From Siphonodentalium dalli (lineage: Eukaryota; Mollusca; Scaphopoda; Gadilida; Siphonodentaliidae), in assembly GCA_032622095.1 (NCBI GenBank), contig CP136065.1, positions 150,293,577-150,357,576 of the forward strand: a DNA stretch of 64,000 bases, given 5' to 3'. A program made the position numbers and the translations under genes. Positions 7,509-63,485 of this stretch are shown in pieces. The notes under the pieces are model-generated. The model was not told the origin of the DNA and did not search any database. It was given only the letters and a program-made list of their open reading frames with translations. Each line of letters starts with the position of its first letter. The first letter of the stretch is position 1.

Positions 7509-7546
7509 ATTGTTTTAAATTTCGTACTTTCGCAAGAATCGATAGA

Positions 7547-17880: not shown

Positions 17881-18097
17881 TACAGTAATGCCCTAAATAA
17901 TCGACTCCTTAACCACAGCAGAATTATGGGTAACTGTTCAGGATTTAGTCGGAAATATGGCTTGTTGCCATTCATCAGAAAGCTCTCAGTGAGAGCTTTC
18001 CGTTAAATGGCAACAAGCCATATTTCCGACTAAATCCTGAAAAGTTGCCCATAATTCTGCTTTGGTTAAGGAGTAAATTATTTAGGGTATTACTGTA
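17881..18097. repeat. CAGT-ended foldback MITE, full copy
   Basis: 217 bp, same ends and arms as the copy at 10710, with a few more mismatches. It lies in intron 3. Confidence 0.9.
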
Positions 18098-20126: not shown

Positions 20127-20622
20127 CTGTTATAAAAGAATAAATACTTCCTAGAAGGCCAGGTCTATTACTTCAGATTCTTGTGTCACTGAACTTAACC
20201 CTTTCCTTATTATAAGATGCTCATTGACTAGTAGTTCTCTTGTAGCTCCTGGGAATAATTTGTTTCTGATCAAACCAAATATCGAACTGAATACACACCA
20301 ATATTCGTGAATCAAATTTTGAATTGAACATTTATCAATGATCATACCAATTATCAAGAAGCTGTTGAATATTACTCAAGTTGTCATCCAGACAACCAAA
20401 AATTGCAATTTCTAAGTAAAAAATTACGATAACTCAGACAAAAATCATCGAACTGGAACCATAATCAAAGTTGACCTGAATAATGTGATGAATATTCCTC
20501 ATATCAAGTTTTGTTCAGATCAGTTGATATTACCTGGAGTCATTACCTGCACAACACAAAAATTACAATTTCTAAGTCAAATGAGGGCCATAAATCCAAC
20601 AAAGAAAGTGCCAATGACACTG
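20127..20622. other. Intron 2 part next to exon 3
   Basis: Diverged relatives of the 12.9-13.9 kb tandem units (AACTCAGACAAAAATCATCG and similar) are visible at about 20395-20600. No gene was recognised. Confidence 0.5.
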
Positions 20623-29064: not shown

Positions 29065-29376
29065 CTGGAGAGCCACCACATTTCTTTGTTGGTTCCCGAG
29101 GTCCCACTTTTTGAAACATTGGAAACTGAAATCGAGTTCGCCATCGAGTATCCGAGTTGAAAGGATTTAAGGTGAACTTTTGCTGTCCTGCATTTCTTGG
29201 GTATGAACTAAGTCTCACAGTATATGATATATCCTTTGAAAACAGAGAACCATTATTCTTGAACTCTCCATCAAACACAACTCCACCGATGTATTCCCTC
29301 GTGTTATTGACAGTCGAGTTCACGAATAGAAGAAAGTCTGTCATAACATCTTCATCCGTGAAACTCTTCAAATTTT
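29065..29376 (-). CDS. ABCA3-like exon 2: first extracellular loop
   Basis: 312 bases encode residues 105-208. It carries the NSTVNNTREY stretch with two potential N-glycosylation sequons, GVVFDGEF, and RTRFQFPMFQKVGPREPTKK, which matches the PGPREPT region of ABCA3. The acceptor is ATTATCTTCAG and the donor is CCAG/GTATAT. The first two bases complete a Glu codon from exon 1 and the last base starts the Gly completed in exon 3. The frame is fully open. Confidence 0.95.
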
Positions 29377-30232
29377 CTGAAGATAATAAAAAATAGTGAT
29401 CAGAAGATTGTACATGTTCATTATTCGGGGAGATGAATATGTTTTCCAGATTCCTTAGCTCCAGTTACAACAGCAACAGCAAGAAAACAACAAAATATTT
29501 AGAAAAATATAATCTAATTTCATGTAAAGAAACACAGTTCATGACCACAGTTTATACATGTATGTTTACATAAAGATGCTAAAATACACACATGTGATCC
29601 TCTTAAGTACTGTAGGTGGATGCGCATCATTAATGTATTGACATCAAAGCACATGCATGTAAGGAAAGTGGTTCAAAGTGGAAAGGATAATTTAATAAGT
29701 TCTGCCCATTTGAAACAATAAAGTCACATTCGAGAAGGTATCCATCTGTTTGTTGCACACTGCACAGATAAATTCACATTGGCTAGCAAGCAAAAGTTTG
29801 CATTATTGACAGAATGTGTCTATGTGATGGGTGAAAAGAGTTAATTATTTCAAAACTAATCAATAAATCAATGCAAAAACCCATACAGGTGAAGATTGTG
29901 CCTTGATAAATAAGAGGTGAGCTATGAGATCTCAGATTGAAAATAGTTTAGTTACAATATCGTATTAGCATGTGTCTACGGAATTGGTGGGAAGGGTTAA
30001 TTTTTTCTGAGCCAATCATTGGAAAGATATGGAAAAAACTATACAGGTGATGCGTGTGTCATCCGGAACCCTTTAATGAAATTTCAACAAGATCGGAGGA
30101 AAAATGTTATCGCATCAGATAGCACATGTCAATGTGATGGATTGGAAGGGTCAATAATTTAAAAACTGATAAATACAAAAACTATACAGGTGAGAGGTAT
30201 GTCAATTATAAACCTGAATATAAAATACTAGC
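29377..30232. other. Intron 1 part
   Basis: From about 29690 to 30210 there are two or three diverged units containing GCATGTGTCTACGGAATTGG and GGGTTAATT words. Similar units are at about 48880-49140. Non-coding. Confidence 0.55.
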
Positions 30233-33200
30233 TGAGCATTTTTTGTAATTCAAGATGGCGTCCAAGATGGCTGCCATTTTCCTGTAAGTCAGCTTGATGC
30301 AATTATAGTGAGAACATCTCGTCATATGTACACACATGTATATATTGTATATATTTATGTGAAGCTAAGACATAACGCCACCTTTATGTGCCAAAATTGG
30401 AACTCCTCGTCCAAGATGGCCGCCAAAATGGCTAACGGAAGTGGAATTTTTACGTTTTTTACTAATATCTTTAAGATAAGTTTCTGTGGTTTGGAACTGT
30501 TTGCGAATTGTGACTTTATTTCTGTATTTAGCATGTTAACTGACCACTGGAGCAATGAAATATGCTGTTCGTGGGGTCCACATCCCTTCCGATCACTCAC
30601 AAATTTGATTTTACAAAACGCGGTATAACATTTCACAAAATATCCCCATTGGGATTCTAGTCATATTTCATCAAGAAGTGGGAAGAACTGTCAAATGTAA
30701 GTGATGCATTGTATATCTTATTGATATTCGAACTCAATGGTACCAAAATTGTCACTTTGGCTCAAAATGGCTGCCAAAATGGCCGCAAAAATATGGAAAA
30801 TGATAAGTATTATCCCAGCGTGCCATGCAACCGCTTACAAGTTGTGGTGATGCGCACAATTGAATATTCTGTCTTATATAGCTTGACTACTAACATTTCT
30901 TATGTATCTCGGGTATTTGTTACTATTTTAACCACTGAAATACCAGAATTATTCGAAATTATTCTGTCACAAACCTGATATCAAAATCGGCAAAAAAAAT
31001 CGCTGTTCAGGTTTGAGCCAGTTTTTAAAAGTAAAATGGAACTATGTTTGTTATCAAAGATGTTTTGATATGTGTTACATGTGTCATACTGAGTTGTTTT
31101 AAAACAAATTACTCAAGATGGCTTCCAAAATGGCAACCAAATTTGGTAAACATTATTATATACATATACATATGTGTATATACGTGGTGTATATGTATAC
31201 ATAATCAATTGTGACTCGCATGCTACTTAATCAACTAAATTATCTATTCTGGTTGTCCCGGTACCCTACGAGACACGACAAGTTCATTTTGAGGAATGCA
31301 ATATGGATTTTGCCAAAAACTTCCTTGTTTTTGAACGGAAATGGGCAGAACGTTGAAACGGAACTGAGAGGGATCATACTGTGTGGCTATTCTGGCCCAA
31401 TAGCTCCAACATTGATCAACTTAATACAGTGTGTATGTCTGTTGAATGTATGGTCATATGCGAGGTGCGTCGGTACACATGGTGAAATGTATAGGTGTAG
31501 AAGGAGTAGCTGTATGGTGATGTGTGAGGTGAACATGTTTACAGTGAGTGGCTGTCTGGTCATTGAAGTGGTGTATGGGCATAACGAGAGCAGCTGCACT
31601 GTCCTGTATGTATATATGGAGTGACTGTGATCAGGGGTGGGATGTACAGATGTACATTGGGTGGCTGTATTGTCATGGGTGGTGTATATGTATACATGTG
31701 TTGGGTGTATGGTAATGGATGGGTGTGTGTATAAATAGGGTGTGGGTGTATGGTTATGTGCAATGTGTATATGTGTACATGGAATGACTGCACGGTCATT
31801 GTTGAAGTGTATATGCATACCTGATCACCTGGTGTACACTTTGATGGCCATTGAAGGCTAGTGTATATAGAGAGTGACCTCATGGTGATGGGTGGAACGT
31901 ATATGTTTATATGTAGGGCCTATTGTATTGTCATTGGTGGTGTGTACAAGCATACAGTGAATAGATGAATGCTCATGGAGATGGTGTATAAGTATACAGC
32001 GAGTGGCTGAATTGTCACGGTTGAGCTGTATATGCAAGTCTGAAGTGTGCGAATGGTCGTGTGCGCGGGGTATTGGTATATCTAGAAGGGCTGTATGACC
32101 ATTGATGGGGTATATATATACACCTGGAGTGACGCTGTGGTCATGGGTGAGGTGTATATGTATATAATGAGTGAATATATGGCCATGACACGGCCAATAT
32201 GTATATAGGGATTGACAGTATGGCAACATTAATGGTGGGTGAATTGATATACAAGGAGTGACTATGATCACGAATGTGGTTTATGAGTATACAGCGAGAG
32301 GCTGAATTGTCATGGGTCAGGTGTATATGCAAGTCTGGAGTGTATGAATGGCCGTGTGCGCGGTACGGGACATTGATATATCTAGAAGGGCTGTAAGGCC
32401 ATTGGTGAGGTCTATATGTATATACCTGGAGTGATTCTATGGTTTTGGGTTGGGTGTATATGTATATCTTGAGTGGCTATATGGCCACGGGTGTCGCAAA
32501 TATGTATATATACAGGGAGTGAGACTGTATGACCACTGGTGAGGCAAATATGTATACAAGAAGTGATGCATGATCATGGATGTAGTGAACATGTATACCA
32601 GGAGTGAATGTATGGTCATCGGTGAGGTGTATATGTATATCTTTAGTGGCTATATAACTATGCATGTGGCAAATAAATATACATGTCGTGTGAGGTGTAG
32701 GAGTATACCTGGTGTGTCTGCATGGTTATTCATGGCTATATGGCCATGGTTGGTGTATGGGTAAACCCAAGTTTGGCTGTATGTTAATGGGCGAGGTGTA
32801 TGTCTATACAGCGAGTGGAACATGGCCATTTATGTGGTACTCATGTATATATGGAGTGACTGCATGCTCATGTGTGATTTGTACTGGTGCACCTTTGTGT
32901 GACTATCGCTTTCCACAATAACTCAAGGATATGTTAATCGATAGAGGTAATATCAGAGTGTTCTCCGCATTAATTGCGTTTTATATGCAATGTGAAGAAA
33001 ACTGTTTTCCTGACAATAGTTTATAAGTTAATCAATTTTGATGCTAATGGGCCAGAGTAGCCAAATAATATGATCCCTTTCAGTTCAGTTTCAACGTTCT
33101 GTCCGTTTCCGTTAAAAACATGGACAGAATCCCAAAAGAGGTGTTCGGCAAAATCCATACTGCATCCCTTAAAATGAATTTGTCGTGCCTCATATGGTGC

Positions 33201-34189
33201 TGGGACAACCAGAATATAAGATTTAGTTGTCAATTGATTAAGTAGCATGTTTAATAACCAAGTGAGTCACAATTTACTACCATTTCGGAACAGCAGAGAA
33301 TAATGTTAGGAATATAAACTTTTTACCAAATTTGGTTGCCATTTTGCAAGTCATCTCGATTAATATTGTCTAAAACACCACACTATGACATATTTAAGGC
33401 ATATCAAAATAAAAAGAACCTTTGATACTAAAAATAGTTCCATTTTACTTGAAAAAAATGGTCCAAACATGAACAGTGATTTTTTGCCGAGTTTGATGCT
33501 GTTTGTGATAGAAAAATCTAATAATTCTGGTAATTTCAGAATAGTAAATATTAAAAATGAATCAAGGTGCCTAAGAAATGTTGGTATTCAATGTATATAA
33601 GACAGAATAATCAATTGTGTGCATCACCACATCTTGTACGCGGTTGCATGGCACGCTGGGATAATAATTACCATTTTCCATATTTTGGCGGCCATTTTGG
33701 CAGCCATTTTGAGCCAAAGTGAAAATTTTGGTACCATTCAGTTCGATTATCAATACAATATAGAATGCATCACTTACATTGCACAGTTCTTCCCACTTCT
33801 TGATGAAATATGACCAGAATCCCAATGGGGATCTTTTGTGAAATGTTATACCGCGTTTTGTAAAATCGAATTTGTGAGTGATCGGAAGGGGCGAGGACCC
33901 CACGAACAGCATATTTCATTGCTCAAATGGTCAGTTAACATGCTAAATACAAAATAATGTCACAATTTAAAAAACGTAAATATATTCCACTTCCGGTCGC
34001 CATTTTGGAGGCCATCTTGGACAGGGAGTTCCAATTTTGGCACATAGAGGTGACGTTATGTCTTAGCTTCACAAAAAGTATACACGTGTATACATATGAC
34101 AAGATGTTCTCACTATAATTGCATCAAGCTGACTTATAGGAAAATGGCAGCCATCTTGGACGCCATCTTGAATTACAAAAAAATGCTCA
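30233..34189. mobile_element. Complete long-TIR element with minisatellite core
   Basis: The left arm at about 30233-31427 and the right arm at about 33018-34189 are inverted copies of about 1.18 kb. The ends read TGAGCATTTTTTGTAATTC and its complement. Both arms carry repeated CAAGATGGC/GCCATCTTG words. The middle, about 1.6 kb, is a minisatellite. I see no transposase, polymerase or integrase frame, so it is a non-autonomous foldback-type element. It sits in intron 1 of the ABCA gene. A target duplication could not be settled. The partial copy is at 1-2303. Confidence 0.8.
31430..32895. repeat. Minisatellite core, about 42-44 bp unit
   Basis: About 34 diverged units of a GGTGTATATGTATACAGGGA and GTGACTGTATGGTCATGG type, all in the same orientation, unlike the head-to-head array of copy 1. 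Confidence 0.82.
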
Positions 34190-43336: not shown

Positions 43337-43604
43337 TTAAGATATTCTCCGTGGAAAACATCATCAGATATGGATCCTATAGAACACAGCACAACTGATT
43401 AATAATTAAAGATAAGCACAGTTTGGTGACGTTTTATTAACAAAACTTGAAGTCAGTGGACGTGATGATCGCAACTGAAATATATACTCTCTTAGAACAA
43501 CAATTTCCCCTTCTTTCCCCAACATATACCTATTTGGAGAAAAATACACAAAATTATTGTTCAATATATCATAAACATTGGGTGTTCACTGGTGAGCAGT
43601 GAGT

Positions 43605-43973
43605 GTTGGCTGGTGGTGGACATGCAGCATGAGTATAGGGATGGAGTTCTATTCTATTGAGGCACACAACAAACACTATAATCATCAAAATCCGTCAGAA
43701 TTTAAAGATCAAGACGGGAGACTTGAGGCACAAGTCTTCAAGCTAAATGGGAGGATACGAGAACTAAACAAGATCTCAAATGTTGTATCTCCATCTTCCT
43801 CCTCTGATCTCAGTGAAAGGAAAAAGATTCGTAAAGGTGACAATAACAAATTGACCACAATCAAGAAATACAACTTTAGCCTATACACAGACGGACTTCA
43901 TCCCATTGTTCTACCAGCAAGGTACTGGTTGAGGAAACTGTCAGAAAGTAATATAGCTGATAACTGTTGGTAA
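43605..43973 (+). pseudogene. Possible ORF1 remnant of the retrotransposon
   Basis: An open frame of about 120 codons ends 115 bp before the ORF2 frame. It includes a polar region with a leucine-spaced LEAQVFKLNGRIRELNK stretch (short coiled-coil look), a Ser run, and YTDGLHPIVLPARYWLRKLS near the end. DGLHP could be the D-x-x-H motif of the SGNH esterase domains found in some CR1/L2 ORF1 proteins, but the Ser-containing block was not seen. Assignment is weak. Confidence 0.4.
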
Positions 43974-44088
43974 AAGGTAAGTGAATCAGTGTCTAACCCA
44001 TATCAGTCAGCTAGGATTTCCAGGCTATACTAGTAGGGCCCCTAGCACTTAACCCACATACCTACCCCAACATGTATATTATCTATCG

Positions 44089-47000
44089 ATGCTGCTTATA
44101 TTCTCTGCGATCAAACAAAGCCAAAATCAAAAGAGCTGGGAAAGTCAACTAACACTTGCAAGTCTCATGAGGATGAGATACAACAGCAGTGGGCGGCTTA
44201 AAATCCTACCGACCATCAGTCGCAAACACACGACCATCAGTCGCAAACACACAGATGCTGCAAGTTGTTTCCTACTTCTCTTACTCGCAGGAGACTTGGA
44301 GACAAACCCGGGGCCTAAAAGAGCAGATACCTACCCCTGTGGCTATTGTGATACCCCAGTAACATGGGAAAATGGTGGAGCCTGCGGTGATACATGTGAC
44401 ATCTGGTATCACAAAGAGTGCCTAGGCTACAACACACAGGAAATGAGTAGACTTAGCAAGAGCAATGTATCTTGGCACTGCTACAAATGCGATAACATAC
44501 ATGTACTATGAAACACTATCGAGACTTGAACAGCACGTTGCAATCAATATCATCCAACTTCAGCCCTGTGAGAGCAAGTAGTCCACGGTGGAACTGTGAG
44601 CATTCGAAATCTCAAAGAAACACAACTTCTATAACCTCAACAACATCTGAAATACCATCTTGTCATGTATTCGAGATACCAAATAAGACGAACCTGAGAT
44701 TACTGACGATGAATTGTCGCAGCCTCAAAGACAAGACCAAGAATTGGCTGCAGCAATAGAGTACATCAAACCGGATATTGTGTGTGGCACAGAGTCGTGG
44801 ATGAGTGGTGTAAAACCAGGTAAACCACCATAATTGGACGCAATGAAGAACATCGAAATGTTTCCAGCGAACTACTCATTGCACCGAAATGACAGGTCAA
44901 CAACAGGAGGTGGAGTATTCATCATGGTAAACAACATCATTTCCTTCGAGCAACCACATCTAGCAACAGAGAGTGAAATAGTGTGGACCAAAATAACGCT
45001 CCAGAACAACAAAGAGCCCATGGTTGGTTGCTGTTACATGCCACATCGATCCGAGAAGACAGTATATGAGTTATCAAAATCCATCAAGAAAATCACGGGG
45101 ACCTCAACTATCCCGACATAAACTGGGATATACCAAATGCGCAAACATATTGTCCCGACTACAACATACAGATTAACCTAATCCAGACTATGACTGACTG
45201 CCAGCTCACCCAAATACACAGATATGCTACGAGAGAGAAGAATATGCTTGATCTGGTATTCACACCAAACCCCACACTTGTCAAGTCATCTGCAAGTGTA
45301 CCAGGCATATCAGACCATGCGATGATTGTCACCGACATAGAAATAAAACCCCACTACCTACACACACCACCTGGGAAGTGCTATATCTTCAGCAAGACAT
45401 CATGGAGAGATCTACGTCATGAAGCTTCTCTAACATCTGCCAACATCTACCACGAGAAGAGCCAAGGTAGGAACGTAAACGAGCTATGGAATATATTTAA
45501 AGACGACATCAAGGCCTCCATGGAGAAACATATTCCATCTAAGACAATCCGGTTCAGAAACAAACCTTCTTGGTTGACGACAAAAGAAAAACGAATGCTT
45601 CGGAAAAGAGCACGTCTGTACAAAAAAGCAAAGAAAACAAACAAATGGGACGGTCGGTCCAGTACAGATCATAACAAAAAGAATGCAAGAAACAACTTAG
45701 AAAAGCTGAATGGGATTACACCAACACAATGATACAAGATTCATTAGACAAGAGAGACACCAATCCATTCTGGCGCTATATTAAATCCAAGAAGAAAGAC
45801 TCAATTGGAGTAGCGCCCCTTCTCTCTGAGGGAAAACTGGTAAACGATAGTCAGGAGAAAGTGGAAATTTTGGTGAACCAATTTCAATCTGTGTTTACCA
45901 AGGACAAGACTGGCCCAATGTCCACAACGAACAAGCACATCACAAATACCATAAATCATAGACAATCAATCGGAATGGGGTGACAAAGCTTCTAAAGGAG
46001 ATAAACCCCGGAAAGGCATCCGGTCCTGATGATCTACCTAACCGTGTCTTGAAAGGAGCTGAGACTGGACTAACAGCCATCTTCCAGCTCTTCATCGACA
46101 ATGGAATGCTGCCAAATGATTGGAGAAACGCCAACATCTCTTCTGTCTTCAAGAAAGGGGACAAACATCAACCAGAGAACTACAGGCCAGTGTCATTAAC
46201 ATAAGTATCATGCAAAATCCTCGAACACATAATATGCAAGCACATCATGAAACATCTAGAAGAAAATATAGTCGTCACCCACCTCAGCCATGGATTTCGA
46301 TCAGGACATTCATGTGAAACACGGCTACTGATAACAACAAACGACCTACTAAAAAACGTCAATGCCAGTAAACAAACAAATCTGATAATACAGGACTTTT
46401 CAAAGGCATTTGATACAGTTCCACACAGCTGCTATACAAACTGGAAGAATATGGTATAAGAGGGCAACTACATACATGGCTCACATCCTTCATCACCAAA
46501 AGAAAAATGAAAGTAGTGCTTGAAGGCCACAGTTCAACCGAGCTAGACGTAGACTCCGGAGTGCCACACTGAACAATAGTAGGGCCTCTCCTGTTCATTT
46601 GCCATATTAATGACTTACCGGATACAACAGTAAGACTTTTCGCAGACGACTGTCTGCTATACAGACAAGTCAACACCACCAAAGACCAGGTCATACTCCA
46701 TCATGACCTAAAGAGCCTTGAGATATGGGCACAAAACTGAGGCATGACATTCGACGCCAAAAAATGCTCCGTGATGAGCCTAAAAGGAAAACACAGCAAA
46801 AACTAAAGGCTGGATGGCGAAATACTCAGCCAGGTCGTCACCAACCCATATCTTGGTATCCAGATTTCGAAGGACTGAAATGGACATCATTCTCAGAGAA
46901 ATCCGAGAGAACTTCCTATATATCATTAGTAAGATCAATAATATGGAGCTATAATATGGCACACCTGCCAGCAGAAAAATATAGATCTCCTAAAAAAAAT

Positions 47001-47486
47001 TAAACGAAAGGGAGCAAGATTCATCACTGGAGACTACAGGTCAAGAGAAGAGGTCAGCATGACGAGAATGTTAAAAGAGCAACACTTCATGCTCGTCGAA
47101 AAACACAGCGCTTGACCTACTTCTATAAGGTGGCAGAGGGTCTGGTACCGGCTATACCAACAAACAACTTCCTAACTAAGGCTAAGGCAAGGAGGAGAAT
47201 TAAACCAAAGCGATTCAATGACCACCAAACAACAAATATCCTTGAGAGAAGAGAGACGAACAATAATAAGTGCTTTGAAATACCATCAACGTCCTGTGAC
47301 CAGTACAAACATTGATTCTTTGTGGACACAGTACAGTACTGGAACAAATTACATCAAGACGTCGTAGCACTAAAGACACCACAAGAATTCGCAGCTGTGC
47401 TATCAGAAACAGCAGCTGCTGGCGCCGCGCAACAACATCGCCTACCGCCCGTCATATCATACCAAATTAGTCACACACGTCAATGA
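44089..47486 (+). pseudogene. Retrotransposon ORF2: 2A-like, PHD, endonuclease, reverse transcriptase
   Basis: The first segment (to 44511) has a hydrophobic stretch, then AGDLETNPGP at 44287-44316, then a PHD-type zinc finger (CGYC, WYHKECLG, WHCYKC). The endonuclease is split over frames: LTMNCRSLKDK at about 44700, TESW at about 44790, GDLNYPDINW at about 45098 and SDHAM at about 45313. The reverse transcriptase shows PGKASGPDDLPNRVLK, YRPVSLT, FSKAFD at about 46397 and the catalytic FADD at 46639-46650. The tail ends at the TGA at 47484. Frameshifts lie near 44510, 45095, 45725, 45975 and 46205, with stops near 46570, 46738 and 46805. The product would copy its RNA at a nicked target. Confidence 0.87.
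44287..44316 (+). other. 2A-like (StopGo) motif
   Basis: AGDLETNPGP matches D-x-E-x-N-P-G-P, with Leu where Val or Ile is usual, and is preceded by a leucine-rich stretch. 2A-like sequences are known in APE-type retrotransposons of marine invertebrates. They make the ribosome skip a bond between G and P, here just before the PHD finger. Activity is not shown. Confidence 0.7.
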
Positions 47487-47489
47487 GAT

Positions 47490-49530
47490 CAAGCGATGAC
47501 CTCAATATTATTACACAGATTTTCAGTAGATCGGCACTTGCTTGTAAAAGGGCTTTCTCGATCGCTGGTCCGATTCTTTGGAATAAAATAATACCATGAT
47601 GGACAGGTAACTCTTAACTATGCACCAGAAGCTTACACCCCGAATGGAGGAATTTTGCCATTATCCTGTGGATCGTTTCACACAGTAGGGTTCTTTAACA
47701 ATGGTTGCACACAGGAATAGGACAGCCATTTACGTCCCCACCGACAGGGCGACGTTATCAAGCCAGTATCATCCCTGTACACGACACCGGGCGGTAGAGC
47801 CCGAAGCCGCCATCGCACGCCGCCGCCGCCAGCCATATTGGCCACAAGCCGCCGCCAGCCATATTATCCTAACGTCAGCCACATGAAGAAAAACAATCCG
47901 CCACCGGAATTTAACGAGAGGCCGATCACGATCGGCAGATGTTTAACCCATACCTTGGCGATAGTGACTAGCCATAACTGATAATTTGTCAAAGATATGA
48001 TCACAGGAATTAATCCATATATCAGTACCCAACTTGAAATCAAAAGCTCAAATAATTTGTCTTAAGAAAGGGTTAAAGTATTTGGGTTGGGGGAGGAGTA
48101 GTTTTAAATCTCATAACTCTGTCCCTATTCACACAAGGACCTCTCACTGTGAGATCCAATGGTTTAGTGATTTCGGAGGACATGTTTAGGAGTTTAAGTT
48201 AATTCATTGGAAGCAAAAGTGATAAATCCCTATCTTTGCGACTTTTGACATGCCAGATATTCAAAATTTATTATTCACTTCTAAAGAGAAATTATAATTG
48301 TTGACAAGCCAGACTGCTTAGAACGACATATATGTAGGGGATTCCATCTCGTATTTAAATGGTACTTTAATTACCCCCCCCCCTTCCCGCATTCTCCCCA
48401 GTTATTTGTTTATCAAACATGGACAGATATAAGATCAGATCTGACCTGTGTATTAAATAAGATTAAGTGTTTCATAACAGGGGTGTATGTTTTTCAAAAA
48501 TATATGTAGTTTATACAATTCAAAAGTATTATCTATATAATGTTATACAGACATAATATGATGGGGATGACCACTAAATCGTTCATATAAAAGAAAGTAA
48601 GTTAGCCCTCATTTGAATGGTTTCACACATTACACTGTTTTACAAGTAGCTTGGGCACTAAAGCCACAACCTTCAATGTTAATCTTATAAGTGCTCTGTG
48701 GCCCCTAAAATTCAATCAACCATGAAAATGTGAACAAATGGGAAAATAAGGTTCCTGGAAATACTAACATCTACCATATTGATTTTCAAAACAAGTCATC
48801 ACTTACAATAGTCATGTATATTTATCTGCCTGTTTCCCCATTGCATAGATAAATCAAATTGGCTATCAGCTGTTGTTTTAATTTTGAAAGCACGTGTCTG
48901 AAGGGTTAATATATTTTTCAAAAATCAATTAGTCAGTCAATACCAAAATTGATAGAAGTGTGCAAAGATACCCAATATATATTAAGAGATATGAGGAAGA
49001 GTCCATGTACATTATAGCATGTGTCTATGGAAACCTTGGAAAGGGTTAATTATTTTTGAAGCAAATTAATGGAATTTAGAAGACACTTATATAGGTGAGG
49101 GGGGCCCTTATCTCATCCTGTAATGAAATTTCAAGAATAGCAAAAAACACCTGTCTTGTGCTGCCATTAATCAATTTGACAGTTAGAATAAACAAACAGC
49201 CAGCCACCAGTGTTGTTTATCTTGCTTGACCCACCAGAGCTCTGTATCATATGTCATCACTCATTTCATAACAGATTTCACTTGTAATGACAACATCTAT
49301 AAAAATCCTCTGATATACTCTGGATGTTGGATTACATGGTAATTTATTGATATCATTATATTACATGAAACTATTGCAATAAAATCTTCATATTTTCAAA
49401 ACAGGATATCACACGGATTCACACCTAATTAATCGTATAAAACTAAAATAAATGAAAGTGTCAATTTTTTTTTATTATTTAAATTTTTTTTTTATTGTTA
49501 TTAAAGTTCAAACACAAAATTTAATATCTG
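47490..49530. other. Region right of the retrotransposon
   Basis: It contains a CCGCCGCCAGCCATATT duplication at about 47820-47870, the dispersed unit at about 47990-48110 also seen at 19.4 kb, a C-run at about 48375, and diverged GGGTTAAT units at about 48880-49140 also seen at 29.7-30.2 kb. No gene was recognised. Confidence 0.55.
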
Positions 49531-49559
49531 TATATGCTAAATTTAGCAAGGAGCTAAAT

Positions 49560-49960
49560 CTAAAAAAAATGAATTTTTTTCTTCTCGAAAAAGGGTCATA
49601 ACTCCTTTAAAATTAATCGGATCAAACCCATATTCGAACTCGATCTGTATTATGGGCTGTGAAACTAACATACCAATGTTATGGTTCCAATCAGATAAAA
49701 AATGTTTGAGTTATGGCAGAATGCGTGAATTCTAAGTTGAAAAAGGGCCATAACTCTGTAACAAAATCTCGGATCAAACCCAAATTCGAACTCGATCTGT
49801 ATTTTGGGCTGAGAAACCCATATACAAAATTTGGTTTCGATCGGATAAAAAATGTTTGAGTTATCGCATTACTCGTAAAGTGTCTACGGACAGACGGACA
49901 GACGGACAGACAGACGGACCAACGACGAGTGGTCAATCCGGGCAACGACACTATGTTTAC
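49560..49960. repeat. Tandem repeat related to the 12.9-13.9 kb units
   Basis: Two units carry GGGTCATAACTCCTTTAAAA-like and CAAACCCAAATTCGAACTCG words, followed by a GGACAGACGGACAGACGGAC tail and CGGGCAACGACA. The GACGGACA-type tail is a recurring end of internally repeated elements in this window. Confidence 0.72.
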
Positions 49961-50033: not shown

Positions 50034-50697
50034 TAGATCATGCCATGAATCTCTACTCCAGCTGACGCCCGTAGAGATCATATTCCACCAGTACAAAACA
50101 CGGGAACTTTTTTTTAAGTTTTGACAGAGAACACCGCGGGTCGTAGGATGCAAGTTTCTTCACAAAGGAGACAGATACAAACGATTCATGCACGAAACAA
50201 TGTTTTATTCCAAATCAATGTCAATATACAGTAGATATATATATATATATATTGAGTATTAATCCAGGGTGAGTGTTACGCAGGGGGAGCTTGACCAGTT
50301 TTGCAACCGGTTCGGTTGAGGGAAGTTATACCATAGACTAAAAATAGGATTCCTTCATCTATGGTTATACTTTTGGCCATCAACCAATCAGAATTGCTTC
50401 CGCGTTTGGTCGCTTAAGACAATGAATTTCGTGACAGGGAATAAAATAAATATTTATCGCGGAATCGGATCTCAAAAGTCACGTCAATAATGTAATCTCG
50501 AGCAGGGGAACTTCACGTACCGATGAATAAATCATTAAGCAACAGGTATTAACAAAGAAATACATTAAATTCTCCGCGTTATTTTTTTGACTTTATAAGG
50601 TTCCCTGTCAAAACTTTAAAAAAGTTCCCGGGTTTTGTACTGGTGGAATATGATCTCTACGGGCGTCAGCTGGAGTAGAGATTCATGGCATGATCTA
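50034..50697. mobile_element. 664-bp element with long TIRs and 9-bp target duplication
   Basis: It starts TAGATCATGCCATGAATCTC and ends with the complement. The inverted ends continue for about 80-90 bp (ACTCCAGCTGACGCCCGTAG, TACAAAACACGGGAACTTTT). AACTGTACT occurs directly before (50025-50033) and after (50698-50706), a perfect 9-bp duplication. Long TIRs with a 9-bp duplication fit Mutator-like elements. No transposase is present. Confidence 0.88.
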
Positions 50698-50706: not shown

Positions 50707-52496
50707 GTGAATCACAATGATCTAAACCGCATTCAGTCTACCGTACACTGCCAGATAAGTGCCTCAGATCTGAGGAGAAACACAGTTCAATGTCATTAAA
50801 ATTATTCCTTCCACAACACAGTTCCTGGGCATATACGCTATACTGCATTGATAATATCGGCATACATGTATTATGGACACTGCTTGGTTGTTATATTATC
50901 AGAACACATGGGCCTCTCAATATGGAATAGACTATTCCAATGCATGCTTTCATCTGAATTGGGTCAGCATCCATTCAGCATTGAAACTTGAAAGGGTTAA
51001 AATATGAATTGTTTATTTCGACACGACTCAGTCTCAAACATTGCTGGAATTTGTCAATATATGCACATAACCTGTAGAATAGAATAGAAAATAGTTTGAA
51101 ATAATATATAAGGATTCATCCTTCAATGATGGGAGCTCATACAAGCCGAACACAACCGAACACAAGTCCAAATAATGGGAAATTTCATGAATAAAGTTCA
51201 TAGGTTCACACTATTAATATACGAAGTTTGGTGGAGTTTGGGCCAATAATAAGTGTTTTATTCGATATTTTGTAAGACGCGTTTAGTGTTCGGCATAGAA
51301 AAGCCGAACACAAGCTAGCTTATGTTCAACACTCATGCAGTCACCGGTAATTAATTAACACATATATGTGGCGTTAGCTGGCGTTTGAGATATATAACTC
51401 TATATATAGTCTACTAAATATACGACCACCTTGTAAACTTCAGACAATGTATTCACGTTCAACCTATTACTATACGAAGTTTGGTGGAGTTTGCTTCAAT
51501 AATGAGTGTTTTGTTAGATGTTTTGTATAACGCGTTTGTGTTCGGCATAGAAAAGCCGAACACAAACTTCTGTCTCGTGGATTAGTTTATCCGCTGATAG
51601 GTGATAAGTAATATCTGCCAGATGGGAGTTGGCAGGCTTTATTCGCGAGAAAAACGTATTGTTGTCCATTTTCGTCTGCATTCTCACTAAAATGTTACCC
51701 CCACCCCGTTATTATTACAAGTACATTCGTACAATATGGTAGTTTAGATGGATCATACTGGACAAATGCGAACATATCAGCACGCCCCGGACTTCTAAGA
51801 AGTAGTAAATCGGTTGTTGATGCATGTTACTCATACGAAAATGGTACGGAGAGTATAACACTAACCACAAAACAAATAATTTTCAAATAGTTTATTACAA
51901 TCATAAGTAAACATTGTAAAATTATATATATGCAAAACATAGATCTGTCACCTGTGTTACTATACTCTTCTCTATTCATGACCACCGACTAGTTCTTTTG
52001 TTTTCACCGATCACCATCTCTGTTTTGTTTTGTTTTTTATCACCCTGCCTGTTTTTTTGGATTTACAGTGGTTATTCGTGACATCGTGTCGACATGTCCT
52101 GGTTCATAGATATAGTGATCAACATGCTGCAGCAATTTCTGATAGCCGTAGGAAGACACTGATATTCGTTTTCGTCACGCATGTTTATACACCGACAGAC
52201 CGTTATTGGGTTCTTCATCGTGACATCAGGACATGTGTGTGTCTGGCCAACATCCAATCAGGCGATATCTTCATATGTTTGTTATCTGGCAATTCTACGT
52301 CGTGTTTAGCTGGCGACATAACATATCTTGGTGATGGTGCAAAGGAATTCTGGTGGAATTGATGTCAATCATAGTATATGTTAAATGTACTATACAATAT
52401 ACTATACAATATACTATATATACTTATATACAATGCATGAGTCGGTGGCATAAAACACACGTAGCTTAAAACATAATGAAAGTGTCAATGACACTG
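50707..52496. other. Region with two direct repeats, otherwise unassigned
   Basis: Two units of about 250 bp (about 51148-51320 and 51420-51570) share ACGAAGTTTGGTGGAGTTTG and end in the hairpin GTGTTCGGC...GCCGAACAC. A 110-codon plus frame at 52030-52362 has no recognisable features. No gene is supported. Confidence 0.55.
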
Positions 52497-54197
52497 TAGC
52501 TCAACTTGGAAAGGGGAATAATTTAATGTATTACAGTCAATGGAGCGATTAGGAATGTGGAAAGTTAAATGTCTAATACTAGTTTATAGACATGAAGAGA
52601 AAAGTAAAATCCAAGATGGCTGCTGGCGGCCATGTTTTCGGCCGAATGACCCCACCAAAATGAGTCGTTCCCATCTACATGTCATCGTTAACATCCATGA
52701 CAAATTTTATGACGATCAGACTAAAGGTACGACCTGTAGCCCATGCTAAAGAATTTAGTCATACAAAGAGTAAAATCCAAGATGGCTGCTGGCGGCCATG
52801 TTTTTTGGCCAAATGACCCCAAAATTACTCGTTCCCATCTACATGTCAATATTAACATCCATGACAAATTTCATGATGATCAGACGAACAGTACTAGTAC
52901 GACCTGTGGCCCATGCTAATGGATTAAATTTTGAAATCCAAGATGGCCGCCATGTTTTCTGTCCGAATGACCCCAAAATGACTCGTTCCCATTTACATTC
53001 CAATTTCAACAGCCATGACAAATTTTATGATGATCAGACTAAAGGTACGACCTGTAGCCCTAGTCCAAGTCTTCTCGTACTAAAACTAGCTAAGATATTG
53101 GGATGGAGAGATGCTAGTGTTTAGTCCGAGATCGCGCGCATAGCCTTCTTATGACACGAGTTACGCCCAGGATCTGTGGCGGGAATCTGTGGTGTATTTT
53201 ACTCGATTTACCTAACAAAGCAATACATGATGCTATATACGTCGGAAAGAGTGACATCTTATGGTCAGAATGGTGTATAATAATCTAACTTTAATGTTAA
53301 ATTACACATAGAATATTCCGGTTGATTGCCACAAACATCGTTGTTTTTTCTGTTTGTTTACTTAACTGAAAGCCGAACTCAGGTTCCGAAGAACTTCGGC
53401 ATTGTCCGGTGTTTGTTCTGAGTATTCTAGTTTCCGTTTCTATATATAGCGCGGGGTTTTCCGAACAAAATGGTGAAAACCGATCGCCGCAAAGTCCAGT
53501 TTCCAATGTGCTTTGAGAACAATTCCCGCACTAAAAACTTAATGACATAATGGAGGATCAGAAAGGTAGTTTTGTTGACAATTTTCGCAAGCAACTTGTC
53601 AAAATTGGAGCAAATTAGAACTCTTGTGTCTGACTTGCCATGCGTGTGATTTTCATCCATGTGCATTTTGACTTTTGTGTTGATAAAATAATCGGAGAAC
53701 CGAATCACACAGTTTCGAAATATAGTTCTTCCGTTTTAGTGGGACTTTTCAAACTTAAAGTCGCCGTCGCGAAGTTCATATTTTACCCATTTCCCCGCTT
53801 ATTAGACCAACAGAGTCGTTCTGAGAACGAAATTAATCGTCCCAAGATTAGCCGCTATCGATTCGCATTCCAGGAAACCCCCCCTGGCATGCGCACAGCA
53901 GTAAACGCGAACTGCAGATTGGGTGTAATTTATTTTTGACCCGTGACGTCATTAATCACCTTGCGGCATTCTGTTGACATTGTGTTATCGAAATCGGTTT
54001 CTGCGTGGTTTTGTTTTAGTTCACAAACATGTTTCGTTTTCGTTGGAAATCGTGAATTCGGAATGTATTTATGTGTGTAATAAAATATTGAATAATACGA
54101 CTTGAATTATTCGCGTGGCCAAAAAAATCCGGAGTAAATTCGTACATATTTGGACGAAGTTCGTGTGTCACTGTGACTGTCAGAATAGGACCACAGC

Positions 54198-54257
54198 AGA
54201 TCATGCCACGAATCTCTACTCCCGTGCCGCTGGAGTAGGTATTCGTGGCATGATCTA
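54198..54257. repeat. Minimal foldback copy related to the 50034 element
   Basis: AGATCATGCCACGAATCTCT and its complement stand almost back to back around a GTGCCGC centre. These are the terminal words of the 664-bp element, so this looks like an end-only derivative nested in the 6.24-kb element. Confidence 0.7.
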
Positions 54258-55046
54258 CATGTAGGTCCACGGGAACTTCGAAATTTATTAACTTTCAACC
54301 TATTGTTGATATGAAATGCATGGGATACGTGACCGCTTTCGCAGATTTCTGCTTTCAAGTCCCACAAGAAGAGTACTAATTACGTTTCTGGCTGAACTAT
54401 CAGAAGGGCTTCTTGGGTGGCTATGCTGTCTACGTATCTGCATGTATCATCTTTGTGAAAATGATTTTAATATGATCAAACAGTGAAATACAGATCTATA
54501 CAGTATACCATGGCTTCTTCCATTCGTTGAGTTGAAAAAGTAAATACTGGAGTGTTATTACGCTGAATAATATAATATCTATGTTCAGGGTAAACACACC
54601 AGCCCCTCCCAAAATGGGCCGCATCCTCTGCATTGTATGGGGTTCAAGTTTTTTTTTTCAATTTTCCTCTGACTCATTCTTTTTTATTATAATATACAAA
54701 AATGTGACAACAATAACGACCATAAAAAACGTTTGCTTTAAAAATAGTGAACCAAAATCATTATTTTATCATTTTATGCAGATTAGTTCCATACATCACC
54801 TTCTCAGGAGAAGTCTATTTCTTGCCATTTCATGACTATAAAGCAAAATAATCAATAAAACCCCCAAGATGATTTTTTGTCATGTAGGTCCTGGACTTCT
54901 CCCCTTCCTAGCCTGGATATCTTACCCCAACCCAAACCCTGACTCAAACAACATTTTCTGGGAAGAAGTTAATTTATCATTGTTTCGTGACTATATAAAG
55001 CAAAATAAGCAATAAAACCATGATTTTTCTCAAGTAGGCGCTGGTG

Positions 55047-55048
<2 letters not shown>

Positions 55049-55077
<29 letters not shown>

Positions 55078-55078
55078 G
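55049..55078 (+). repeat. Run of 30 G
   Basis: An uninterrupted G30 tract, able to form G-quadruplex structure. Its length may be an assembly or sequencing estimate. Confidence 0.9.
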
Positions 55079-56107
55079 CTACATCATGTTCTGGAATCTT
55101 CGTTTCATGACTTTATAAAGCAAAATAAGCAATGAAACCATGAGACAATTTTTTGTCATGTAGGTGCTGGGTTGTGGGTAGCTATCCAGACCTGGACATT
55201 TGAAAGAATGAAATTAAATAAAAACAAATTTAAATCTCAAGTCATTTTTCTCGCCATTTCAGGATCAAATAATCAATTGTGTGATTAAAAAAATATGTCG
55301 CTTGGAAAAAAATATATTTTAATAAAAAAAAAGAAGGGAATTATAAAAAAAAACATTTTTCTGCCAATTTCAGGATCAAACTATGAAAAGTGGGGGGAAA
55401 TTTGTCACTTGAAAATATTTTTTTTTTAAATAATAACTAAGTTTAATATCAAACAATTTGGCCATTCCAGAGTCAAACGTTATCAAATGAATGAAATTAT
55501 TTTCAGTCATATATGGGAGATGAAGATTAGGGAGATACATTGTAACAAACTATTAAGATTTCATTCATTTTTCATGCATTTCTCCAGCTCGGGCAAACGA
55601 AAGCCCCTGTAATTTCCACCATCATTTGGGAAAGCATACTGAAATTACTGATGCCATTCACAACACACGATGGAAGAGGTCTGCAGTTATGCAAACCATG
55701 GTAGCCATAGCACCACCGAATAAACTGTCTATGCGATATGCCTGTATTTGTTGTGCAGAGGTCCATTAAACGGATGACTATACTGTTGCTGGTATCCTAA
55801 CCATGCAACTTCAAGTAGCCATGGGTCCAGGCACACACTCCTGAAGGGGACAGTCTCTGTGATACACTTGAAGTGTCCTTCTTCCTATGAAATCGCTTTT
55901 GTCACTTCCTTTAGCTTGGTCTCAACTTTTTCAATCTCATGGCAACATCTGCACTCACAGGTACATTGTAGTCTCCATCACATACATAGGTGCATGAACA
56001 CCTGAAATGACAAGGGAAATACATTTATTATGGAACAACTCAGAGTTAACATTCAATTCCTCAATTTTGTTGATGCAAACTTTGACAAATTTGTAACAAA
56101 CTCGACA

Positions 56108-56308
56108 TACAGTAATGCCCTAAATAATCGACCCCTTAACCACATCAGAATTATAGGTATAGTTTCAGGATTCAGTTTGAAATATGGCTTGTGGAAATTC
56201 ATCGGAAAGCTCTCATGAAGGCAACAAGTCATATTTCGGACTAAATCCTGAAAAGTTACCCACAGTTCTGCTGTGGTTAAGGGGTTGAATGTTTAGGTCA
56301 TTGCTGTA
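56108..56308. repeat. CAGT-ended foldback MITE, most diverged copy
   Basis: TACAGTAATGCCCTAAATAA at the left; the right end is TTGCTGTA, with deletions and substitutions around the centre. It is nested in the 6.24-kb element. Confidence 0.82.
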
Positions 56309-57559
56309 TGTTCTGATGAATGACAGTGGGCATGCGTCTGTCCGTCCACTTGTTCTCATGGATACATGCATCTTGGATAAGTTCCGCACAAATTTGTTAT
56401 CAGAAGTTATACCTGCTGAATTGTTTACCAGGTATCTATTTCATTATCCAGTTTTGTTAATATCCTGTTTTAAAGATTCACAGCTTATACTATAGTAGTT
56501 TGTTTACCTGGTGTACATGATATCTCCCCCAGTGCATCCCCCCTTTTTACTATTTTCAGTCTGTCAAATGCTCACACCCACCGAGAATTCAACATATGAC
56601 AAAATATAAATGTACACGTATTAATTTATTGCTTATTTATTTTTATGTTATAGTCATTAAATGGCTATAAATTAACATGTTACAAGTTGTTTGAGTCAGG
56701 GTTTGGGTGGAGAGGGGGTAATTAGATACCCAGGTCTGAATATCCCCCACACCCAGCATCTACATAAGAGTATATGACAAAAATAAACTAATTATTTTAT
56801 TGCTTATATTGCCCTATAATGCTATATATCCATTAAAATTTTGATTGAGTCAGGATTTGGGTTGGGAGAAATTACACAGGCCTGAATATCCCCCCCCCAA
56901 AAAAAAGAAACCAGCAGCTGCATATGAGACAAAAATATCTTATTATTTATCACTTACATTTACCGGTATATCGCTTTATATAGTCATGAAATATATATGG
57001 CGAGAAATTAAAATTAATCGAGAAAAATTTCATTGAGTCAGGGTTTGGGGTGGGAGGGGGGAATACCGAGGCTTGAGTATCTCTCGCCTTTTCATGAGTG
57101 TATGAAGCAAAATAAGCAACTTATAAAATAATAAATTCATTTTTGTCATAAGTAGCTGCTCGGTTGGGGAGTGGGGGCGATAATAAACCCGGGTATCTTT
57201 CTCCTGCCCCAAATACTGACTCAAACAACTTTTCTTGGAAAGTTAATTTCTTTCCGTTTCATGACTATATATTCAGAAATAGCATACATTGGCATGTATA
57301 GACCAAGTTTTCTCAGTCCACAACAGCTTGGGAAATTGGTTGGGTTGATGCTGTTTTGGACCGAGAATCCGAGATGCCTCCTGTTGCTCTTCTATACCAG
57401 TACCGTAACAGATTTTCATTCAAAAGACATACTACATGTACATGTATAGTACCCCGACAGTCATGTGAACCCATGAATATAATCATCTCACTTGGACCAC
57501 AATGAATCTGTCTTCAAAATGATATACAATGTACCATATACTGTTATAGAAAATATCCA

Positions 57560-57760
57560 CACCAAGATATTATCTCGACTCTCTCGAGATTTCGAGAAAA
57601 GAATCTTGAGATATTAACATATTTTCTCGAGATCATACGGCAAGATCTCAAGAAAATATGCAGAGATCTCAAGATAATATCGCGAGATACTAGTAATATG
57701 TTCAGAGCTTGAGATGCGCATGTCAGGATCTCAAGATGTGTCGAGATAACAATTAACAAT
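57560..57760. repeat. Cluster of TCTCGAGAT / ATCTCAAGAT words
   Basis: At least eight degenerate copies of a 9-10 bp palindromic word occur at irregular spacing, often followed by AAAATAT. A simple repeat-rich patch with no coding content. Confidence 0.65.
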
Positions 57761-57769
57761 AACATGTTG

Positions 57770-59197
57770 AATATTCAACTTTCAAGACACTTTTTTTTTC
57801 TTGGACAATGTCACAAGTCAAGAGTTAGCTAATTTTTGACAAATTATTATTTTAGCCAGTGCAAACACTGTCTCTGATTGTCATAGTACTGATACTAATA
57901 GCTGAATCTAATGTCAATCCGTGAGCAGCCATGGACTGGCAGTGGTCGAGTCCAGAATTTCAATACATCAAAAAATTGCCATTTTTAGTAAAAAAAAAAT
58001 ACTACTGGTATATTTTTAGACTAACATTTCGGCAGACACACAACTTTTCCTTGAATTATATTTCATATTTCGATGTATTGAGTATGCGTAATGATTATTA
58101 CACATGTCCGCTCGTATAAACCGGGTTTTAGCTAGTATTTACATCAATTTTATTTTCACATGTTTTGCCAGTGACCGCGATATTTTTAATAAGAGACGCT
58201 CAGTGACTCACCATTTTCGTACGCGATTTTCATCTCTTCGCCATCCAAGGTCTGGATCGTTTGGTGGTCTCACACCATGTAATTTTGTGGTAATTCCGGC
58301 TCGTGCATGTACGCTCCCGTTGTCAAATATAAAGTGTCTTCTGACGAATCAGACGAGGAACAATCAGATCGCAAAAAATGTTTCTGTCAGTGTCAGCCAT
58401 TGTGGGAAATACCCAAGGTCCTTAAGTACGTCACACGCTTTCTCGCAAATAACTGTTTCCGTCAAAATAGATAATGAGGTGAGGCATCAGGCTATCACCC
58501 AGACACACACAGTCGTAAACACTCGTATCTTTCAGACAGCGGGGGATTGTATTCTTAAATAAGTGTGCATAACTTGATACAAATATGAATAAATGAACAT
58601 ATATTGAGAATTTTCACGACGTCGACTTTAAGGTTAAAAATTTATACAAATTTTGTTTGATTTGTTGTGTGCTTAACAAGAGCAGTATATTGCTCTGTTC
58701 GCTCAGTATATATCTTAATTTCGCTGAAGTCCACCAAATGTGGGAAATGTAGCACCATATTATTTATTCTAATGCCCGTTGTGTTTACACTGTTTTAAAC
58801 TTTGAGAGGGTTGTAATTCCCCGTAATTTATTTAATGTATTACATTTATATCTTCAATGTTTAATTAATCTATTTATTTTTTATTTATTGATACACATAA
58901 TTACGATTACAATGGAGAATTCATCGTAATTTGCGTTGTCAGTCGAAAATCTACGGAATATTTTCAACGGAAAATGCCGAACACAGTTCGCGAGGTCAAC
59001 TGAGTTCGCATACTTTTAAAAATTTGTAAACATTGCGGTAAATGTCTCTTTTCGCATTAAATTACCGCTTTCAATTCACAACTGATGTGGGGTTCAGATC
59101 AAATAGCATGTCTTCTGCGGAAAATATCTTTTATTGTCGCAATTGTGATATTTTATTTCATATAATTGTGGTTTTATTTGAGCGGGTCATTAACGCT
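57770..59197. other. Right interior of the 6.24-kb element
   Basis: Includes the unrecognised 152-codon frame at 58104-58562. Another frame nearby, at about 58320, reads as an acidic SSDESDEEQSDRKK stretch. No catalytic motif was seen. Confidence 0.5.
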
Positions 59198-60148
59198 TAA
59201 CTCGTGTCATAAGAAGGCTATGCGCGCGTTCTCGGACTAAACACTAGCATCTCTCCATCCCAAAATCTTAGCTAGTTTTAGTACGAGAAGACTTGGACTA
59301 CTGTAGCCCGTGCTAAAGGATTTAGTCATACAAAGAGTAAAATCAAAGATGGCTGCTGGCGGCCATGTTTTTTTGGCCGAATGACCACAAAATGACTCGT
59401 TCCCATCTACATGTCGTTATTAACATTCATGACAAATTTTATGATGATCAGACTAAAGGTACGACCTGTAGCCCGTGCTAAAGGATTTAGTCATGCAAAG
59501 AGTAAAATCCAAGATGGCTGCTGGCGGCCATGTTTTTCGGCCGAATGACTCCAAGATGACTCGTTCCCATCTACATGTCATTGTTAACATCCATGACAAA
59601 TTTTATGATGATCAGACTAAAGGTACGACCTGCAGCCCGTGCTAAAGAATTTAGTCATACAAAGAGTAAAATCCAAGATGGCTGCTGGCGGCCATGTTTT
59701 TTGTCCGAATGACCCCAAAATGACTCGTTCCCATCTACATTCCAATTTCAACAGCATGACAAATTTTATGATGATCAGACTAAAGGTACGACCTGTAGCC
59801 CGTGCTAAAGGATTTAGTCATACAAAGAGTAAAATCCAAGATGGCTGCTGGCGACCATGTTTTTGTTCCGAATGACCCCAAAATTAATCATTCTGGTCTA
59901 AATGTTGATGTCAACAGCTATGACAAATTTCATAATGATCCGACCAAAGGTACGACCTGTAGCCTGCATTGACGCCTTACGTACACACGTACACACATAC
60001 ACACAGACGACAAAGCCATGGCAATAGCTCAAACTTTACAAAGTAAAGTTGAGCTAAAAATGTGAAGCACAAAATATAAAGCACAATATAAAAGCACAAA
60101 ATATGAAGCACATCTTGTGATTACCACAAAATTTAGGCACCCACTGAC

Positions 60149-60280
60149 CACAGGAGCTTGGAATTTGGTCAAAACCCTCTTTTATTGGCGGAACCACCAC
60201 CCGGGACCATAGGTCATATGGCCCCGGGTGGTGGTTCCGCCAATAAAAGAGGGGTTTTTACCAAATTCCAAGCTCCTGTG
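60149..60280. repeat. 132-bp foldback MITE with 7-bp target duplication
   Basis: It starts CACAGGAGCTTGGAATTTGG and ends with the complement. The arms of about 60 bp are nearly perfect. CACTGAC lies directly before (60142-60148) and after (60281-60287). The ends and near-8-bp duplication would fit a hAT-like origin, but this is uncertain. Confidence 0.85.
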
Positions 60281-61600: not shown

Positions 61601-61901
61601 ACACTGTTGTATAGGTTTTTTGTTAGTATATTGTATTATTATTCTAGGGAGGGGGCATTAGTAGGACTTGTTAGTACTTTTTCATATATACATACTGGAG
61701 TATTTTTCCATGCTTGCGAACCTCACTGGGACTCAACTCAACAGGCCTCAGATTTATGTCTATACTTATAATAAAATAAATTGTGTACATGACAACGGGC
61801 AGGAGAGGATAACTGATAAATGACATCTCAGTGAGGCATACATGGTTTCACACTCATATTATATATATGGGAGGCCCTTTTCACATTTATTATTTATTTG
61901 T

Positions 61902-62087
61902 GCTTAAGCGCAAATATTTGCGCTTAAGCGTAAATCATTTGCGCTTAAGCGTAAATCATTTGCGCTTAAGCGTAAATCATTTGCGCTTACGCGCAAATAT
62001 GTGTCTATCCTGGTCTATCAATTTATTTGCACTTAACCGCAAATCATTTGCACTTAAGCGTAAATCATTTGCGCTTAAGTGCAAATA
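61902..62087. repeat. Palindromic 21-bp array, TTTGCGCTTAAGCGTAAATC type
   Basis: Units of GCGCTTAAGCGTAAATCATTT repeat about eight times, with a short interruption at about 61999-62028. Each unit is nearly palindromic around CTTAAG. Frames across it read as LRLSVNH repeats and are not genes. Confidence 0.88.
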
Positions 62088-63322
62088 CGTAACACTCCCT
62101 TACTTCCCTCTGATTGTGAATGATTGAGTCCATCTCATAGTATATTATCATGGGCCCATAGTAGTAGCCCCATACAGACTTGAAAGTTGAAGAGAAAACA
62201 TATTTCCATATGCATATCAGCATCTCTGTCCCTCTCTAGTATATGTTATTAAATGGACATCTCCTGCACAGATATATACCATTTCCATGGCCATAAATAG
62301 GGAATTAGGGGTTACTGGGGGCTTGTTTCCCTCATATGGTGTACTTATTGACTTGAATTAGGGGAAAAATCCCTATTTTCATATTATCAGCATCCCTGTC
62401 CCCAAGAATTTGAGTCTCCATCCCAGAGATCTAGTATCAACTATATATTTTGAGACTTCCGTATATATGTGTGTATGTACTTTATAGAATCGAAAACGGC
62501 TGCACTGATCGAGACCAAACTTCCCATCTAAGGGTAAAAACCCACGGGAATGGTCGTCGCGGCGTTTTGGAGAAGCTCCGAACACCCGTTCTTCACTGTG
62601 GGGTTAATCGCGTTGATAGTTAAAGAGCATTCGTGTCCGCAGTGTCGTTGATAAAGAGCGTATGCGTGTAATGTGATTCTTACGTCTGGGTCCTGGCGTG
62701 AGCGTATGTATCCAGACATGAGCGTGTTGTGTGATTCTTACGTACTTAGGGCTTCCTAAGAACGGGGGAGATTTTCATCGGGTCAGTTTTTCCACCCGAG
62801 GTGATCTTCACCTTGAAACGGGTACCCACAAATGATATATATGTGTGTGTCCTTTATAGGACTCGAACCGATTGAGCTCAAACTTGCTACATACGGGAAG
62901 TGTCATGGACGGGTTAAATTGTGACCCCGACCTGACCTTGAATATGATCAATTCACTGTCAAATCGGGTCAAATTGAAAAACAAAAAATTTGATTACAAA
63001 AATTAATTAAAAAAGCCAGTAAATTAAAAAGGCACAATTAACCCATTGAAAAACAAAAGATGTAATTAAAAAATTAATTAAACAAAGTAAAAATTGTCAT
63101 GTTTCTGACAATTGTCGCCAGTGGCGGGCTAACCTGCTAGTATTTTATAAAAGAGACATATACTGCACAGATCTATAACATTTCCATGTCATGAAAGGGA
63201 TCTTGGGGTTACTGGGGGATTGCTTCCCTCATATGGTGGGCCTATATAGACTTTATAGTGATATGTTTAGGCCTGTGCCATTTAAAATTAATTCAGGGGG
63301 ATCAATGCATATTAATTTTTAT
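62088..63322. other. Stretch between the two palindromic arrays
   Basis: About 130 bp at 62235-62345 are repeated at about 63135-63245 (TTACTGGGGGCTTGTTTCCC-like and TCATATGGTG words). 62470-62700 and 62840-62950 carry related TATATGTGTGTATG and GAACCGATTGAGC-like heads. No gene was recognised. Confidence 0.55.
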
Positions 63323-63485
63323 TTGCGCTTAAGCGCAATGATTTGCACTTAAGCGCAAATGATTTGCGATTAAGCGTAAATGATTTGCGCTTAAGCGCAA
63401 ATGATTTACGCTTAAGCATAAATATTTACGCTTAAGCGCAAATGATAGAGGTTATTTGCGCTTAACCGCAAATATTTGTGCTTAA
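63323..63485. repeat. Second palindromic array, TTTGCGCTTAAGCGCAAATG type
   Basis: About eight units of the same near-palindromic word as at 61902. Together with the shared flanks, the two arrays look like the ends of one duplicated block. Confidence 0.86.

Follow-up and report, generated by a model that had tools for sequence, protein, structure and literature searches.

An element of 6,240 bp at positions 53061-59300 of the window, the 64-kb stretch of DNA that was analysed as a whole, is probably a non-autonomous cut-and-paste DNA transposon of the Mutator (MULE/Foldback) type, judging from the form of its ends and its target-site duplication. It is a real nested insertion of a non-autonomous DNA transposon, ordinary in kind, and its family is unplaced. 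Seen directly were its ends, the target duplication, an empty site that is restored when the flanks are joined, and older mobile DNA in the interior; no transposase was recognisable.

Ends, target duplication and insertion site

The terminal inverted repeats (TIRs) of the large element extend over 106 nt with three mismatches (positions 37, 72 and 104), which is equal to two mismatches over 103 bp and agrees with the initial annotation, where TIRs of 103 bp with about two mismatches had been described. Beyond the 106 nt no TIR similarity was found, since the alignment of the next 500 nt was matched or bettered by 51 of 200 shuffles and that of the next 1,000 nt by 116 of 200. A GCCGAAC motif, spotted by eye, is sub-terminal near both ends, and it was not paired by the TIR-extension alignment. 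Both TIRs are flanked by the target-site duplication (TSD). Among TSD lengths of 6-12 bp only 9 fitted at these ends, so the perfect 9-bp duplication claimed earlier was confirmed; the chance identity of two random 9-mers from the window is 1.4e-5. The coordinates are collected in Table 1.

Table 1. Positions of the large element's parts, its target and the neighbouring 664-bp element in the window.
Feature	Position	Strand	Details
Left TIR	53061..53166	+	106 nt, 97.2% complementary to right end; tip TAGTCCAAG
Right TIR	59195..59300	-	inverted partner of left TIR
TSD, left copy	53052..53060		perfect 9 bp, CTGTAGCCC
TSD, right copy	59301..59309		perfect 9 bp, CTGTAGCCC
Second copy of tip motif within left TIR	53122..53130	+	TAGTCCGAG, one mismatch; mirrored in right TIR
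Target array, left part	52603..53060	+	164-bp units
Target array, right part	59301..59964	+	164-bp units
Hairpin, right end of Helentron-like element	60026..60055	+	DNA fold z-score -5.9; 0 of 200 shuffles equally stable
Decayed inverted pair of tips akin to the 664-bp element	54188..54268		25 nt at 96% and 46 nt at 83% identity
Interior repeat, three decayed copies, forward	54793..55197	+	nhmmer
Nested palindromic MITE	56105..56311		TA at both ends (by eye); one of four copies in the window
Interior repeat, three decayed copies, reverse	56571..57011	-	nhmmer
Interior repeat, two further decayed copies, forward	57078..57290	+	nhmmer
Second element, 664 bp	50034..50697		80-bp TIRs, one mismatch; 9-bp duplication AACTGTACT; TAG...CTA tips

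The tip motif TAGTCC[A/G]AG occurs at TIR positions 1 and 62. The internal copy may be a candidate second binding site, and the recurrence would fit a transposase that binds twice; the evidence is weak, as an internal copy also turned up when the TIR was shuffled (118 of 5,000 shuffles). When the 20 bases of the TIR tip were searched with up to three mismatches, no other occurrence was found in the window. Neither the TIR patterns nor the satellite pattern gave an exact match in the viral and prokaryote contig collections, and such misses say little. The 11-mer of the tip, taken on either strand, occurred in the literature only under titles on unrelated subjects.

The whole window was scanned for exact 9-bp repeats that flank tips alike at 18 or more of 25 positions, with a spacing of 100-12,000 bp. 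This strict scan returned 10 rows, two of which, the large element and the 664-bp element at 50034-50697, reached 25/25. The other eight scored 18-20 and all came from 21-bp repeat arrays near 62-63.5 kb, where a 21-bp palindromic repeat like ATTTGCGCTTAAGCGCAAATG forms two arrays, at 61896-62086 and 63321-63446. When repeats of 8-10 bp with one mismatch were admitted, the scan gave many more rows, some with 25/25 tips, within other long inverted repeats, and the weight therefore rests on the 9-bp repeat being exact and lying directly at the TIR termini. None of the added rows paired a perfect 9-bp repeat with 25/25 tips.

The large element interrupts a tandem array with a unit of about 164 bp, at a junction between units. 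Joining the flanks with one copy of the TSD yielded a normal unit junction like the other junctions of the array, and the array ran in register across the insertion. The empty site was restored in this way. To its left, this array is bounded by a flank with CAATGACACTGTAGCTCAACTTGG, and to its right by a hairpin, AGCTCAAACTTT...AAAGTTGAGCT. At about 20.6-21.9 kb, a related array is bounded by the identical left motif, CAATGACACTGTAGCTCAACTTGG, and by CCATGGCAATAGCTCAAACTTT with a slightly diverged hairpin, the motif of which is at 21847; between its units and those of the target array, stretches of 44-71 nt match at 84-91%. Two related elements of Helentron-like form, each with a satellite-like core and a right-end hairpin, can be outlined at about 20,600-21,870 and 52,480-60,060. 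Helentrons end in a hairpin. The carrier of the array has a satellite-like core array between flanks common to its copies, and with approximate outer boundaries it resembles the non-autonomous Helentrons (HINE) of oysters, which are described in an excerpt of PMC7492417 as carrying satellite-like cores, lacking a TSD and inserting at oligo-T. The bivalve and oyster papers (PMC10294476 and PMC7492417, both in part) serve as comparison only. The 164-bp array is thus the insertion target and not the interior of the large element, which is a nested insertion in an older, Helentron-like element.

Interior content and order of insertions

The interior was compared with Pfam in six frames with stops masked, and no transposase was found at E<=1, in agreement with the initial annotation, in which none had been recognised. 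The only Pfam match of any kind in the six frames was CR_prot_dom_plant (E 0.059). No PHD finger was matched, and no Pfam family that could represent a captured host gene came near its cut-off. As a positive control, the same method was applied to 43600-49839, a region as long as the large element, in its three plus-strand frames. RVT_1, split over two frames, was detected there at 43.6 bits (E 3.7e-11), above the cut-off, and at 29.3 bits (E 8.9e-7), just below it. Since the method detects a frame-broken RVT_1, a transposase domain in moderate decay would probably not have been missed, while an intron-split or far-decayed transposase might escape the scan. The control region itself is a decayed LINE with the reverse transcriptase over two frames and an ORF that weakly matches a PHD finger (E 2.3e-4, below cut-off).

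From the list of ORFs of at least 50 aa, ten with lengths of 76-155 aa were searched singly; they gave MmeI_hel (E 0.13), CoV_RPol_N (E 0.026) and Endonuclease_7 (E 0.066), which were far below the cut-offs and were taken as chance. The longest ORF (155 aa) had no PDB relative at E<=1, and no RNA family reached its gathering score in the window. No gene was recognised in the large element, and the parts of its interior that can be named are decayed repeats and other transposable elements. The former comprise eight matches of 66-148 bp to a 129-position profile, in both orientations, and the rest of the window gave none at E<=0.01 (nhmmer). The tandem-repeat interior of the initial annotation therefore holds only in part: eight interior repeats exist, but they are decayed and lie in both orientations, and the regular 164-bp array is the target. 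The palindromic MITE nested in the interior belongs to a family with TACAGTAATG...CATTACTGTA-like ends, whose other copies are at 3593-3736 (partial), 10707-10929 and 17880-18099.

In a tree of seven MITE arms, in which node supports were low (0.03-0.79), the branches private to the two arms of the nested MITE measured 0.136 and 0.181 substitutions per site, and when these arms were aligned with each other the fraction of differing sites was 0.237. Between the TIRs, 3 of 106 sites are different, or about 0.014 per TIR, so that the MITE is about ten times more diverged per arm. For divergences of 0.27, 0.2 and 0.1, the probability of three or fewer differences in 106 sites is 3e-11, 2e-7 and 0.005, respectively. 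Either the large element arrived with an old interior or its TIRs were homogenised, and the perfect TSD favours arrival without proving it. TIR identity is no clock, because gene conversion or selection can keep TIRs alike. Most likely, we infer, the whole 6.2 kb jumped as one unit after the insertion of the nested MITE. TIRs that are 97.2% alike and a perfect TSD, compared with 0.14-0.18 on the nested MITE arms, are signs of a fairly recent move, as had been proposed before. The insertions are cleanly readable as a stack, with the Helentron-like element containing the large element, and the latter containing other, partly older elements.

Superfamily assignment and rival explanations

The superfamily call rests on TIR and TSD length, because no transposase was found and, within the window, no second copy has these ends. 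The hAT superfamily has 8-bp TSDs and tips of the form YARNG; the large element has a 9-bp TSD and the tip TAGTC, and hAT is disfavoured by both TSD length and tip. MULEs have TSDs of 8-11 bp, often 9, and typically long TIRs (PMC6446971, in part). The perfect 9-bp duplication and the ends of 103-106 bp agree with these traits, although long TIRs are common and not universal among MULEs. The large element has no MULE-type DDE transposase inside, which non-autonomous members do not need. The lengths of TIR and TSD, usual for MULEs, and the lack of a detected transposase thus support the earlier view of a non-autonomous DNA transposon insertion. Against the MULE assignment, the TAG tip is unlike the G/C-rich tip that is said to be common in arthropod MULEs (PMC13359780, in part).

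In the proposed mechanism, the 103-106-bp ends would be recognised and bound by a transposase whose gene lies elsewhere in the genome. This borrowed enzyme would excise the large element whole, the excised element would be joined to the target with a 9-bp stagger, and gap repair at the staggered site would leave CTGTAGCCC on both sides. By analogy with the systems compared below, the transposase acting in trans would probably be Mutator-like. If the element moved with its old interior, and if its host is an animal, a MULE-type transposase of that host can carry several kb of non-coding DNA between ends of about 100 bp. MULEs are reported as rare across 100 animal genomes, and no Pack-MULE was found in the reference genomes (PMC8277862, in part).

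Several described systems are similar in part. The non-autonomous Mutator/Foldback elements Tm1-HH and Tm1-ML of root-knot nematodes (Meloidogyne) have mostly 9-bp TSDs, TIRs and no transposase, and stand beside a Tm1 member whose MULE transposase is of the Phantom type; in one copy that has been described, another transposable element is nested (PMC3169594, in part). The Tm1-HH elements described there are about 1 kb long with asymmetric tips and TIRs of tandem motifs of about 14 bp, whereas the large element is 6.2 kb long with simple TIRs. Drosophila Foldback FB4 is also non-autonomous, with a 9-10-bp TSD and long TIRs, and is held more likely to be a MULE on its TSD and TIR traits, but its TIRs are about 700 bp, compared with 103-106 bp here (PMC8277862, in part). 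Rehavkus has a 9-bp TSD, TIRs of 26-400 bp and internal repeats like the large element. It is also described with a PHD-finger transposase and a minisatellite before the 3' TIR (PMC6446971, in part), neither of which was found in the large element: the repeats of the latter are decayed, lie in both orientations and stop at 57290, some 1.9 kb short of the right TIR. The invertebrate MULEs Phantom and Muta have 8-10-bp TSDs and, where present, TIRs of 18-613 bp, which is like the large element, but they encode a MULE transposase, in some cases with FLYWCH or SWIM fingers (PMC6446971, in part), and none was found here.

A non-autonomous transposon of another or undescribed superfamily, with 9-bp duplications and TAG...CTA tips common to the 664-bp neighbour, is a less favoured explanation, which we regard as rather unlikely. 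The two elements are 2.4 kb apart and have TIR sequences that are unlike beyond the tip, yet in both the TSD is 9 bp, the TIRs are long (106 and 80 bp), the tips are TAG and the tip motif is repeated within the TIR. In a loosest scan (at least 15/25), TAG was present at both tips in only 3 of 124 rows, namely these two elements and 13904-14701. However, there are two cases only, and a common trinucleotide arises by chance at about 1/64. The repeat in the 664-bp element (AGATCAT at TIR positions 2 and 42) is weak evidence. Since the outer bases of its TSD are complementary, a duplication of 7 bp with TTAG tips fits this element too; a length of 9 bp is in line with the unambiguous TSD of the large element. 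No exact match to the 664-bp element's tip was present in the viral contig collection. That both elements form one undescribed lineage, defined by 9-bp duplications, TAG...CTA tips and a repeated tip motif, whose putative transposase would move up to 6 kb of unrelated DNA, is quite unlikely on these features; two TAG-tipped 9-bp elements side by side are a modest lead. For Merlin, the 8-9-bp TSDs fit and the conserved terminal GG (PMC8101967, in part) does not, as the tips are TAG. Dada was set aside on its TSD of 6-7 bp and the lack of TIRs in the described families (PMC3706591, in part).

It is distinctly improbable that the large element was once autonomous and, by decay where it now lies, lost any recognisable trace of its transposase. 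Its 6.2 kb are within the 1.4-10.0 kb range of transposase-encoding arthropod MULEs (PMC13359780, in part) and parts of its interior are old, but the TIRs and TSD are nearly perfect compared with these decayed parts, and no trace of a transposase domain was found by a method that detects a frame-broken reverse transcriptase. A chance arrangement, in which two inverted 106-bp segments lie within a tandem array and the 9-bp repeat reflects the periodicity of the array, is highly improbable. Tandem-repeat flanks would show unit sequence on both sides of any breakpoint; the overlap, however, is exactly 9 bp and abuts both TIR ends, in an array that keeps its register. Among 13 hand-picked inverted pairs, a 9-bp repeat within six bases of the ends was present in two (the large element and the 664-bp element) and a 7-bp repeat in one (60149-60280), while the other ten had no 6-12-bp repeat at their ends.

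Other features in the window

The third TAG-tipped row, 13904-14701, is a 798-bp candidate MITE with an 8-bp repeat, TTATGACA, and tips TAGGGCCCTGCGAA (TAGGG) alike at 18/25, which we take to be hAT-like by the form of the tips. The 132-bp palindromic element at 60149-60280 has 7-bp direct repeats (CACTGAC) and lies about 0.1 kb past the Helentron-like hairpin. A broken gene at 5777-7514, with weak sub-cut-off similarity to Phage_integrase (E 4.4e-5) and to DUF3504 (E 5.2e-4), may be Crypton-like. An exon-like ORF at 28931-29464 resembles residues 128-231 of an ABCA3 chain (PDB match, E 8.4e-6). Judged by this ORF and the LINE with RVT_1, the DNA probably belongs to an animal. Moreover, a large inverted duplication extends over 30239-34182, with the longest ungapped pair of arms measuring 422 nt at 90%.
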